64,000 nt of DNA from assembly GCA_009777615.1 (NCBI GenBank), contig WRLM01000004.1, positions 1 to 64,000 of the forward strand, written 5' to 3'. Of this stretch, positions 40,444-44,279 are shown in pieces. Positions within the stretch are counted from its first letter, which is position 1. Each line of letters opens with the position of its first letter. Source of the stretch: Candidatus Methanoplasma cognatum. Lineage in GTDB: Archaea; Thermoplasmatota; Thermoplasmata; Methanomassiliicoccales; Methanomethylophilaceae. Both the position numbers and the translations under genes were made by a program. The notes beneath the pieces are model-generated. The model did no database searches and was not told the origin of the DNA. It worked only from the letters and a program-made list of their open reading frames with translations.

Positions 40444-40992
40444 TCAGCTCACCCTCGGTCTGTCCTTCGTACTGAGTTCCGTTTTTCTCTGTGTAGCGGC
40501 ATTCCTCAGCGCCGTGCCGAGTGCTTTGAAGGTCGCCTCGATGATGTGGTGGTCATCGAATCCTCTCATCTGCACCACGTGCAGCGTTATTCCCGAAGAC
40601 ATCGCAAAGCTCCGCAGGAAGTGGCGGTACAGCTGATCGGGACAGTCGATGTCCGCGAAAGGCCTTTCGATTATATCCACCGACACCATCACCAAAGCAT
40701 CGTCCATCGGGATGACGACGGTCGACATCCTTTCCACCGGTTTATCGTCAAGGGCCTTCTTGAAAGCCGTTCCCAGAGTTATCGCCGCATCCTCAATGAT
40801 GTGGTGGTCGTCATCGCCGGATGCTTTCATGGAGATATCGAAAGAACCGTACCTTGCAAGCGTTTCCACCATGTGCTTAAGGAACTGTATGCCGCATTCG
40901 ACGTCGAACCTGCCGCTGCCGTCGATGTTCAGTTTAACCGAAACGTTCGTTTCCCGCGTGCTGCGCTCCAATTCAGACATCCTTTCTGTCAT
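40444..40992 (-). CDS. hisB: Imidazoleglycerol-phosphate dehydratase
   Basis: 182 residues, monofunctional. RSTRETNVSVKLNIDGSGR, DDHHIIEDAAITLG and a second FDDHHIIEATFKALG supply the paired His/Glu metal sites. ATG at 40992 lies about 27 bases after a TATA element within the upstream gene's end, fitting a leaderless transcript; an internal ATG at 40980 with agaaagg before it is also possible. Confidence 0.95.
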   Translation of the reverse strand: MTERMSELERSTRETNVSVKLNIDGSGRFDVECGIQFLKHMVETLARYGSFDISMKASGDDDHHIIEDAAITLGTAFKKALDDKPVERMSTVVIPMDDALVMVSVDIIERPFADIDCPDQLYRHFLRSFAMSSGITLHVVQMRGFDDHHIIEATFKALGTALRNAATQRKTELSTKDRPRVS

Positions 40993-41013: not shown

Positions 41014-41024
41014 TTATATAATAA
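41014..41024 (-). promoter_or_regulatory. TATA box for hisB inside the end of the cyclase-like gene
   Basis: Read on the minus strand, attatataaca lies about 27 bases before the hisB ATG at 40992. It overlaps the stop codon of the upstream gene and would let hisB-hisF-hisIE be transcribed without the island. Confidence 0.45.
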
Positions 41025-41829
41025 TTATCTCTTGGTCTGGTTCTTGGATGTTTATGGTTGTGATTCCGTTTATTTGTTCGGTTCTGAATACGATCAGTTC
41101 TTCCCGTGCACCATGTTCTTCGCACACTCTGTTATGGTTTTTCAAAGAGTGTTCATACATTCCAATATAATTCTTACGTTTTGCAGGATCATCCGGCAGA
41201 ATGCTGTTGTATCGTTCAATCGCTGAAATAAGCGATTCCCTATGGACTTTTAAATCTGGCTTTATAGTTTTCCAAAACCCGAACGGGCATGCCTCCAGAT
41301 AGTTCAGAAAGTGGCGGTCGACAGTAATGTTCTTTGTGAAATTGATAATATCTTGGTTTGTAATGAATTTTTCCTGCGCCACCTCATTAATAAGCTCCAG
41401 AACATTATCCGCAAGGACAATGCATGAATATTGGCAGGCTTGTTCCATGTCGTGGGCGGTTACCATTGCCGACCCCGTGAATCCCTCATCAGTAATGCGC
41501 AGGCGTCCTTTTACGATTGAACCTTTGATAAAAAGTCCATGGCACAGGGCCTCTTTCTGTGTTTTGGCCACGACATCACACAACATAAGAATCAAACCAT
41601 GGTCACAGTCCCCCGTCTTGAAGTATATGTCGATAGTATCTCCATATAATCTGGCCTCAAGCTTGAAATCCTTTTTTCTGGATGCGTTTTGACGTCTGAT
41701 TTCTTCGTTTGAAGTGGACAAAAGCGCTTCTATCGCATCGAAAACGTCATCTGTTCTAGGAACTGATTTTGATAGCGTTGAGAATGCAACGACGTCTATC
41801 CGAGCAAGAATGTATTCGTCGCCGCTCAT
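41014..41829 (-). CDS. Class III nucleotidyl-cyclase-like protein
   Basis: 271 residues. The N-terminal 150 residues follow the cyclase catalytic core: ILARIDVVAFSTLS with Asp12 in the first strand, RLYGDTIDIYF with Asp64 in the beta-hairpin, GLFIKGSIVKGRL, then TGSAMVTAHDMEQA. Both metal-binding Asp positions are occupied, so activity is possible. The remaining 120 residues (FGFWKTIKPDL, NYIGMYEHSLKNHNRVCEEH) are unfamiliar. It follows the phosphoribosyltransferase-like gene by five bases. Base composition is AT-rich compared with the his genes. Pycsar defence systems use cyclases of this class; the link is inference. Confidence 0.65.
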   Translation of the reverse strand: MSGDEYILARIDVVAFSTLSKSVPRTDDVFDAIEALLSTSNEEIRRQNASRKKDFKLEARLYGDTIDIYFKTGDCDHGLILMLCDVVAKTQKEALCHGLFIKGSIVKGRLRITDEGFTGSAMVTAHDMEQACQYSCIVLADNVLELINEVAQEKFITNQDIINFTKNITVDRHFLNYLEACPFGFWKTIKPDLKVHRESLISAIERYNSILPDDPAKRKNYIGMYEHSLKNHNRVCEEHGAREELIVFRTEQINGITTINIQEPDQEIIII

Positions 41830-41834
41830 GAAAT

Positions 41835-42845
41835 TTACCTCAGCTGTGCGTCATTATTGCCTGCAGTGCCGACTATTATATTCTTTTTAACAACGCTGAA
41901 TCCGTTTGTTGTTAGGCTGTTTATTATTTTTCCACAATTGTCTGCGATGAATCTTTCACTAAGGAGGAAGGGCAGGTTCTTAAGATCAATACCATCCACA
42001 TCCTCGCAGATCGGGCAAAACATCGGCGTTACTACAATCTCTGAGTAATTCCCGTAAATCGATGCAGAGATTCTGAGCTTTGATATGTCCGTTTCGTAAG
42101 GGATCTTAAGCTCAGAAAGGTAACGGCATAAGCATTTTCCGTTAATATGTAAAGATACACGCCTCGTGTACATCGTATTGTCTACCTCATATGAACTGTT
42201 TTGACAGCTTTCTTCAATAGCACTAATGATCGAATCAGTCATGCTTTTGAGGTCTTTCGGTAAACCCCCCTCAACTGAAATAGAGAGGCTCTTATAATCC
42301 GGACTATAGTTCACGCTTAGGTTGCTTATATACGGCATCATAAAATAGGCATAATAATATGCCTGGCAGCCAGGAATGAGTTCTCCGTTATCTCCATACT
42401 TGTAATAGTCTTTGAATTTTTCAAGGTACTCAATCTCAATGCCGCATTCCTCTATTTTTTCCAAAGCTTCATCATTTATCGTTATGCACGCAGCACGAAC
42501 ATCATCTGTTTTATTAATTTTAGATAAAACATTAATGACACTTTGCCCACTATGAATAGAATCATCAAAAATAAGAATATTTTTGTCGAGAAGATCGGTC
42601 GAAGGCACTTTTTCAATATTTTCATTTGTGTAGTGTATAACTTTCAGGTTACGTATCTTAATAATGTCATCAATTATCCATGATCCCTTTCGCAGTGTGG
42701 ATATTACCACATCCGTGTCTTTTTTTGTTATAATGTCTGTGAGGAATCTTCGTATTTCTATACATGCAACCGTAACTGCCGCCGGGGATTCTATATCTTC
42801 TATTGATGGAACGGTGTCCATATTCTTTGGCGATAATTTTCTCAT
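41835..42845 (-). CDS. Phosphoribosyltransferase-fold protein with unknown C-terminal domain
   Basis: 336 residues. Residues about 20-135 form a type I PRTase: VVISTLRKGSW and the PRPP loop ILIFDDSIHSGQS (90-102) with the paired Asp and the S-G of the family. From about 190 onward there is an unrelated domain with MYTRRVSLHING, FCPICEDVDG (a CxxC) and IADNCGKIINSL. It is not an obvious salvage enzyme (Apt, Hpt, PyrE, Upp). The ATG overlaps the stop of a small upstream frame. AT-rich codons suggest foreign origin. Confidence 0.7.
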   Translation of the reverse strand: MRKLSPKNMDTVPSIEDIESPAAVTVACIEIRRFLTDIITKKDTDVVISTLRKGSWIIDDIIKIRNLKVIHYTNENIEKVPSTDLLDKNILIFDDSIHSGQSVINVLSKINKTDDVRAACITINDEALEKIEECGIEIEYLEKFKDYYKYGDNGELIPGCQAYYYAYFMMPYISNLSVNYSPDYKSLSISVEGGLPKDLKSMTDSIISAIEESCQNSSYEVDNTMYTRRVSLHINGKCLCRYLSELKIPYETDISKLRISASIYGNYSEIVVTPMFCPICEDVDGIDLKNLPFLLSERFIADNCGKIINSLTTNGFSVVKKNIIVGTAGNNDAQLR

Positions 42846-43027
42846 ACGCGGCCCTCTGTACTGTCAATCACCCTAATATGGAGTATTCTTTTAAAGACTT
42901 CCAAGAGGTACCTGAAAGTGGACTCGTTCTCTTTTCTCCTTTCAGCAGGGATGAACTGCAGAGATAACATCAGCAGAAGGTAGGATATGTTATTAAGATC
43001 GAGTTTGATAACGTTTATTAAAATCAT
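42842..43027 (-). CDS. Possible small protein at the head of the island operon
   Basis: A 61-residue frame (starting MILINVIKLDLNN, ending DSTEGRV). Two observations support it. A TATA element on the minus strand lies about 27 bases upstream of its ATG, as for leaderless archaeal genes. Its TGA overlaps the ATG of the phosphoribosyltransferase-like gene (ATGA). The sequence has a hydrophobic N-terminal stretch and a basic helix (AERRKENEST then FRYLLEVFKRIL). No family is recognised. Confidence 0.4.
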   Translation of the reverse strand: MILINVIKLDLNNISYLLLMLSLQFIPAERRKENESTFRYLLEVFKRILHIRVIDSTEGRV

Positions 43028-43048
43028 AATGCATATTAGAACAAAACT

Positions 43049-43080
43049 AATTATATAAATTTAATAGTGTAATATTATAA
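43049..43080. promoter_or_regulatory. Divergent promoters of the island
   Basis: aattatataaattta (43049-43063) reads as a TATA box on the minus strand for the small frame and phosphoribosyltransferase gene. taatattataac (43069-43080) is a TATA box on the plus strand for the winged-helix gene. The 350-base gap is very AT-rich and otherwise empty apart from the small frame and the palindrome. Confidence 0.5.
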
Positions 43081-43115
43081 CAATCTATTTAATTAGAAAA
43101 CACATAACTAAATAC

Positions 43116-43135
43116 AACGAGTGTATCCACTCGTT
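43116..43135. promoter_or_regulatory. Perfect 20-bp palindrome, likely operator
   Basis: AACGAGTG-TATC-CACTCGTT: 8-bp arms and a 4-base centre. It lies between the divergent promoters and the winged-helix gene, about 35-55 bases downstream of the plus-strand TATA box. Repression by the adjoining regulator is the simplest reading; a leader hairpin is the alternative. Confidence 0.6.
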
Positions 43136-43195
43136 AAACTGTGGATTTTTATGACGTGGCTCTGTTATAATTTCCGCAAAGAAAAGGAGGAAAAA

Positions 43196-43486
43196 ATGGT
43201 ACAGAAAGAACAAGTGTTATCAAATGACTTCCTAGTATGTACAAAAATTTATGAATTCAACAAAAATGGCGAAGACATATGGTTTAGTAAATTAGTGAAA
43301 GCCATGAATGGAAGTCCATCCCAGTCCACGATATCCAAATGCATAGACAGGCTGTTTGACAGAGGAATGATCGACGGCGATTGGAAAAAAGTCGGAGACC
43401 GCTGGACGAGAACTTTCAGAATCACTGGTGAATTCGAGGGTTTCGTCAAAGGATTGTATGACGTGACGGAAGAATGCGAAGAGTGA
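43196..43486 (+). CDS. Winged-helix transcriptional regulator
   Basis: 96 residues. The pattern SNDFLVCTKIYEFN, IWFSKLVKAMNGSPSQSTISKCIDRLFDRGMIDGDWKK, DRWTRTFRITGE is a winged helix-turn-helix with recognition helix near STISKCIDRL and a wing at GDRWTRTF. A strong aaggagg five bases before the ATG fixes the start at 43196. It is transcribed away from the phosphoribosyltransferase-cyclase genes and flanked by a palindrome, so it probably controls the island and itself. Confidence 0.75.
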   Translation: MVQKEQVLSNDFLVCTKIYEFNKNGEDIWFSKLVKAMNGSPSQSTISKCIDRLFDRGMIDGDWKKVGDRWTRTFRITGEFEGFVKGLYDVTEECEE

Positions 43487-43562: not shown

Positions 43563-44279
43563 TTATTCAGCGGACCAAGGATTGTCCCACTCCCACGGCC
43601 TGATTCTTTCTGTGTATAACGCCAGCCCGACGACGGCGCCCGCCGCTCCCAGCTTGCTTAACGTCCTGCAGTCGGCCTCAGCGGTTATACCACCGGAGGC
43701 TATCACTTTGTGAGGGCATTCCGATATGAACCGACCCGCCTGGTCGGCGTCGATGCCTTTCATCTGCCCTTCCACGCTTACGTTCGTGTTGAGGACGCCG
43801 CTGAGAGGCATATCTCCGATGAGGTCGAACATCTTTTCCACGGTGATGTCGGAGGAACCCTGCCATCCGTTCACCGCCAGGGAGCCGCCCTTGGTGTCCA
43901 TGCCTACCATGATCTTTCCCGGATGGTCATCCGAGATCTTTGAAAGCCAATCAGGTTCTTTGATCGCTTTTGTTCCGACTATCACTCTGTCGGCTCCCGA
44001 TGAGATGAGGTCATCCACCAGGGCTTCGGACCTGACGCCTCCGCCTATTTCCACAGGAACTCCGCACTCTTTGATTATTTTTTTGAATATGTCTATGTTG
44101 TTCCCCTTTCCGAACGCACCGTCCAGGTCCACAAGGTGAAGGTACGGCGCCCCCTTCTCGACCCAGGACATCGCCGTGCTCAGGGGGTCCGGCAGCGTTA
44201 TCTTTTGGCTGCCGATCTCCCCGCCCACGAGCTGAACCACCTTATGGTCAAGCACATCTACTGCGGGTATGACCATCAT
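43563..44279 (-). CDS. hisA: Phosphoribosylformimino-AICAR-phosphate isomerase
   Basis: 238 residues. IPAVDVLDHKVVQLVGGE, HLVDLDGAFGKG, EIGGGVRSE, GMDTKGGSLAVNGW, VIASGGITAEADC. TIM-barrel isomerase for step 4 of histidine synthesis. The catalytic Asp of the first strand is present. It is followed by the divergent winged-helix gene of the island rather than by another his gene. Confidence 0.95.
   Translation of the reverse strand: MMVIPAVDVLDHKVVQLVGGEIGSQKITLPDPLSTAMSWVEKGAPYLHLVDLDGAFGKGNNIDIFKKIIKECGVPVEIGGGVRSEALVDDLISSGADRVIVGTKAIKEPDWLSKISDDHPGKIMVGMDTKGGSLAVNGWQGSSDITVEKMFDLIGDMPLSGVLNTNVSVEGQMKGIDADQAGRFISECPHKVIASGGITAEADCRTLSKLGAAGAVVGLALYTERIRPWEWDNPWSAE

Follow-up and report, generated by a model that had tools for sequence, protein, structure and literature searches.

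A PRTase-fold and winged-helix gene pair with a cyclase-fold partner forms a candidate conflict module between hisA and hisB of Candidatus Methanoplasma cognatum

Introduction

What kind of system occupies the gap between hisA (43563-44279) and hisB (40444-40992) in the archaeon Candidatus Methanoplasma cognatum? In the window, which is the whole 64,000-nt stretch analysed here (contig WRLM01000004.1, positions 1 to 64,000, from a genome of 1.62 Mb that is 99% complete), the two genes are separated by a 2.5-kb island of three intact genes, coding for a cyclase-fold protein, a phosphoribosyltransferase (PRTase)-fold protein, and a winged-helix protein (Table 1). A sequence-only reading had proposed that the PRTase-cyclase pair may make or modify a nucleotide signal or a PRPP-derived molecule as a stress or anti-phage module, with the winged helix as the island's own regulator. 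The following analysis indicates that this finding is real and mostly points in the right direction, but that the module was centered on the wrong two genes.

Results

Three genes and their boundaries

The GC content of the island block is 34-45%, compared with 50-60% in the flanking his genes, and the cyclase-like and PRTase-like ORFs, both on the minus strand, are separated by 5 nt, with the winged-helix ORF divergent from them, all as first described. Of the named relatives sharing these genes, the nearest are Candidatus Methanoplasma porotermitis (G057), from the same genus, and G100, a Methanomethylophilaceae MAG; since this set recurs in other genomes, the island genes represent more than a chance assembly. 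On the hisB side, the AT-rich box TATAATAATTAT is found upstream of hisB in island-free relatives, and the last cyclase codons of the window fall inside that box. No recombinase is encoded in the island itself.

Table 1 Features of the hisA-hisB island (positions refer to the window)
Feature	Position	Strand	Size and remarks
Cyclase-fold gene	41014-41829	-	271 aa; class III nucleotide-cyclase fold; profile, Foldseek, column counts
PRTase-fold gene	41835-42845	-	336 aa; candidate effector; Pfam, PADLOC, AF2, Foldseek
Winged-helix gene	43196-43486	+	96 aa; homologues beside PRTase elsewhere; start from homologues and RBS
Divergent promoter region	42846-43195		350 bp, AT-rich; between PRTase-cyclase and winged-helix gene
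Inverted repeat AACGAGTG-TATC-CACTCGTT	43116-43135		Possible operator; not conserved
hisB-side insertion junction	41014-41034		Cyclase 3' end overlaps AT-rich box TATAATAATTAT; sequence comparison

Homologues of the winged-helix protein beside PRTase genes in other genomes are 31-69% identical to it and all begin near its MVQKEQVLSND segment. Because of these N-termini, its start is placed at ATG 43196, behind AAAGGAGG, and not at GTG 43121 as previously read. The divergent layout is also seen in G057, with 322 bp between the genes. What had been called a perfect 20-bp palindrome in this intergenic region consists of two exact 8-bp arms, AACGAGTG and CACTCGTT, around an unpaired 4-nt centre (TATC). 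A comparable repeat arises in about 5% of base-shuffled versions of the same region and none is present in the equivalent region of G057; as a conserved operator, the repeat was therefore rejected. PADLOC has no model that matches the winged helix or the cyclase of the window.

A type I PRTase fold with an intact PRPP loop

The PRTase protein comprises a type I PRTase domain (~residues 20-175) followed by a C-terminal alpha/beta domain (~185-325), and its PRPP loop is ILIFDDSIHSGQ (about residues 90-101), with the motif ILIFDDSIHSG. A profile built from eight homologues has HGPRTs among its matches (E=2e-6), and Foldseek aligns the AlphaFold2 model (pLDDT 81) with HGPRT, UPRT, and OPRT structures; the listed structure matches cover the PRTase part only (~130-190 aligned columns), without the C-terminal domain. 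The PRTase fold proposed from the sequence is thus present, as is the PRPP loop. Matches to families of conflict systems are weak. The Pfam PRTase-CE family (PF24390) is hit at E=1.2e-4 with 22.5 bits, below its gathering score of 27, and this link rests on Pfam names, a search of the open literature for a primary PRTase-CE paper having returned none. The PADLOC PRTase_III-A (retron) models match weakly over 80 residues in the PRPP-loop region (E=5e-5), and relatives of the protein weakly match PADLOC ShosT. The CPIC motif, highlighted earlier as part of a candidate effector domain, does exist at residues 277-280, but it is out of register with the CxxC found across the PRTase family, and the G100 homologue has no such motif at all; a conserved zinc site at CPIC is accordingly not supported.

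The PRTase pairs with the winged helix, and the cyclase is an add-on

Searched as a single sequence against the genome contigs, the PRTase returned no close relatives, while an alignment query returned seven. A phylum-wide search at E<=0.001 gave matches in 236 genomes, mostly of 20-40 bits around the PRPP loop; the weak ones resemble housekeeping PRTases or PRPP synthetases, and the strong matches alone were used. The PRTase occurs in 7 and the winged helix in 10 of 147 genomes of the order (Methanomassiliicoccales), three genomes carrying the winged helix without the PRTase. The two genes are adjacent in every PRTase-bearing genome of the order (7/7, including a split locus in G058 and a decayed one in G048), as well as in all six further archaeal loci (G375, G320, two Methanosarcinaceae, Methanoperedens, and one uncultured archaeon), that is, in 13/13 loci. 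Convergent orientation is the rule, in some loci with an overlap of 11-17 nt, and only the window and G057 have the divergent layout. With such conservation, the winged helix is a component of the system and not merely a private regulator of the island.

Three intact loci (window, G057, and G100) have the cyclase beside the PRTase, with gaps of 1-9 nt. The survey thus bears out that this pair recurs outside his clusters, in G057 and G100, and in decayed form in G048 (L016:3379-4691), where an internal deletion has joined the PRTase N-terminus to the cyclase C-terminus. However, it is the PRTase and the winged helix that form the conserved unit, to which the cyclase is added in a single family of Methanomassiliicoccales. 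In a tree of the PRTases, the three cyclase-bearing proteins form one group (support 84/91), to be read with caution given the long branches, and they have in common a PGCxxYYY insert and lack, at that position, the CxxC region of the other PRTases. The grouping and the insert fit a co-evolution of PRTase and cyclase.

Partners other than the cyclase are found elsewhere. HD-CE genes (PF24391) neighbor the PRTase in G015 (E=5e-20) and G058 (E=1e-12), and N-terminal membrane segments can be recognized by eye at the Methanoperedens locus. In G375 (L087:1868-3932), the pair adjoins a 196-aa protein that has no Pfam match and looks CHAT/caspase-like by eye (HISCHG...LSACE motifs). Viral contigs searched with the PRTase and two cyclases contained no relatives, and therefore give no evidence of viral carriage; plasmids yielded one distant cyclase match (Cupriavidus) and none to a PRTase relative.

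These distributions bear on whether the island is a plain toxin-antitoxin or selfish maintenance module, in which the PRTase would be the toxin, the winged helix an autorepressor or antitoxin, and the cyclase a passenger or inactive stabilizer. Such a module would account for the absence of a cyclase from most PRTase/winged-helix loci, for the weak match of relatives to the PRTase toxin ShosT, and for the decayed G048 copy, which selfish modules would predict. However, the short distance of 1-9 nt between PRTase and cyclase in three diverged loci, together with the retention of both metal-binding Asp residues (see below), suggests that selection acts on the cyclase and the PRTase jointly, and we consider this explanation unlikely.

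A class III cyclase fold with altered catalytic positions

As a single sequence, the cyclase has no match in Pfam, NCBIfam, or PADLOC. Its family profile (16 members) matches class III adenylate cyclases of the PDB over profile positions 10-156 (E=0.002), and the G100 homologue exceeds the cut-off of Pfam Guanylate_cyc (PF00211; 24.2 versus 21.9 bits). The AF2 model of the window protein is poor (pLDDT 56.5), for which reason the Foldseek result counts as supporting evidence; nevertheless, the class III order of elements is present, and all matches of E<=0.001 are class III cyclases. Asp12 and Asp64, which align with the metal-binding Asp residues, are invariant (16/16 homologues). By fold, profile, and these two residues, the window protein belongs to the class III nucleotidyl cyclase superfamily, the cyclase core proposed from the sequence being present, and it carries an extra C-terminal helical part. 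In contrast, the positions of the transition-state Asn and Arg of an active class III cyclase are Val123 and Asp127 in the window protein (aligned to Rv1625c GDAVNVASRMES), and the corresponding columns of the homologues are mostly I/V and E/D/K/N, with N/R absent in nearly all. The protein is thus likely to bind metal and NTP, whereas ordinary cyclase chemistry is not assured and catalysis is doubtful because the transition-state Asn/Arg are missing.

Some homologues of the cyclase outside the cassette have defense genes as neighbors. In G124 (L079:3570-8501), the cyclase-fold gene is divergent from a BREX cluster (brxA, brxB, and brxC), and in G424 a homologue stands beside type I restriction genes. 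A conserved cassette in G089 (L023:3877-6330) and G056 (L024:4513-7032) combines a cyclase-fold protein with proteins of 190 aa and 357-371 aa, the latter, in G056, having no curated Pfam match; an HsdS-domain gene lies near the G089 copy. Three side observations may be recorded. A recombinase-like gene is seen by eye near the G124 locus; in G042 (L022/L012, C83), the reading frame of a cyclase homologue overlaps that of a protein with a CARF-like domain (HFX_2341_N), possibly as a pair of nucleotide maker and reader; and the window's own genome has, on contig C5 (L078:3305-5166), a second cyclase-fold gene overlapping a 275-aa gene that is PIN-like by eye and has no Pfam match.

The Pycsar cyclase PycC has a class III fold and two metal Asp (PMC11224242), features that the window protein shares. 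In a Pycsar-like system, the cyclase would make a cyclic mononucleotide upon infection, and the C-terminal domain of the PRTase would act as the receptor that activates the PRTase. The class III core with invariant metal Asp is in keeping with such signaling, as is the HFX_2341_N domain of G042, which is of a nucleotide-sensor type. However, the canonical Asn/Arg are replaced in the window and nearly all homologues, and the neighbors are his genes and not a CNBD effector. The searches gave no PADLOC match and no PycC structure among the profile hits. Since no cNMP-binding domain (PF00027) is matched anywhere in the 99%-complete genome, we do not regard the island as Pycsar, and signaling of this kind appears improbable.

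The hisA-hisB gap is an insertion hotspot

PRPP is the starting compound of histidine synthesis, and the island lies inside the his cluster and encodes a PRTase that retains its PRPP loop; it could, on these grounds, be a regulator that links histidine or purine supply to PRPP. The comparison of the same gap across the genus speaks against such a metabolic role. In six congeners, the gap measures about 50-250 bp and has no insert. G056 has a 6.3-kb gap (L107:3940-9115) containing IetS and IetA (E=1e-226 and 1e-137), which make up a known defense system, together with an NYN-LOTUS gene, and in G060 the insert is an AAA/DUF4143 ATPase (candidate PDC-S01 in PADLOC); the G067 contig stops within a homologue of the cyclase that lies immediately upstream of hisB. 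Empty in six congeners and filled by IetAS or an AAA ATPase in two others, the hisA-hisB gap is an insertion hotspot of the genus with a defense flavor, and the his context of the island is therefore incidental. Together with the location of homologues elsewhere outside his clusters, the patchy distribution (7/147 genomes of the order), and the low GC, this leaves a metabolic role very improbable. The stress or anti-phage role suggested from the sequence alone fits this context, both through the IetAS system in the same hotspot of a sister species and through the BREX and type I restriction genes beside cyclase homologues.

Comparison with known systems

Type III retrons have, next to the reverse transcriptase (RT), genes for a PRTase and for a winged-helix protein that binds DNA; these two constitute the effector pair, a proposed effector of abortive defense (PMC12548924). 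The sequence-only reading, which knew of no described system of this make-up, was therefore only partly right, the PRTase/winged-helix half being this known pair. The archaeal loci have the same conserved pair as the type III (III-A) retrons, although the homology to the retron genes is itself weak; they differ in that the genes are mostly convergent and that a cyclase-fold, HD-CE, or membrane partner stands in place of the RT. Inspection by eye of the ORFs that surround the PRTase loci revealed no RT. Away from the island, contig C2 of the window's genome (L120:985-3435) has a large ORF with a sub-cut-off RT domain (YVDD), possibly an RT of the abortive-infection type.

A role as suicide effector has been proposed for PRTases both in retrons and alongside DprA (PMC9122126). 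In DprA-PRTase systems and ShosTA, the PRTase is a probable suicide effector released by its partner (PMC9122126), but the island has no DprA-like gene, its partners being the cyclase-fold protein and the winged helix. With PRTase-CE/HD-CE (PF24390 and PF24391), the island shares a superfamily region (E=1e-4), and relatives in G015 and G058 have HD-CE neighbors, whereas the window PRTase stays under the gathering score and the island contains no HD-CE gene. The island is best filed as a variant of the PRTase/winged-helix conflict systems and as a member of neither Pycsar nor the retrons.

Discussion

The best explanation of these observations, which we put at about an even chance, is an RT-less conflict module with the PRTase as effector, the winged helix as regulator, and the cyclase-fold protein as trigger; a defense function in the broad sense is quite probable. 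Such a module would be horizontally mobile, probably antiviral, and inserted in the hisA-hisB hotspot, and its core would be the PRTase-fold effector with the small winged helix, akin to the effector part of a type III retron but without the RT. The cyclase-fold protein, whose two-Asp metal site is intact, would take the place of the trigger and bind or convert an NTP upon threat. Once triggered, it would free or activate the PRTase, whether by touching it directly or by way of a nucleotide product, and the active PRTase, as the toxic part, would employ PRPP or a nucleotide to halt cell growth. As the brake, the winged helix may act as a repressor, an antitoxin, or both, keeping the pair off until a threat arises. 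Given the loss of the Asn/Arg pair and a genome without a cNMP-binding domain, a metal- and NTP-dependent contact switch is favored as the moderately probable mode of trigger action, with a diffusible messenger somewhat less so.

A bolder version, possible but somewhat unlikely in our estimate, would make the island an RT-free archaeal counterpart of the type III retrons. Here the RT/msDNA trigger would be replaced by an enzyme of class III cyclase fold whose active site is non-canonical, and which would make or hold a nucleotide signal that switches on the PRTase effector. This would define a new nucleotide-gated class of defense, with exchangeable triggers (RT, DprA, cyclase, and HD-CE) on one PRTase effector.

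The RT-less conflict module suggests that the PRTase and its winged helix serve generally as an effector cartridge that accepts different triggers, and it would supply an archaeal example from methanogens. Being small, free of an RT, and equipped with another partner, it would offer a simple setting for finding the substrate of the PRTase, and the hisA-hisB gap would be a spot in which to search for further systems in the genus.
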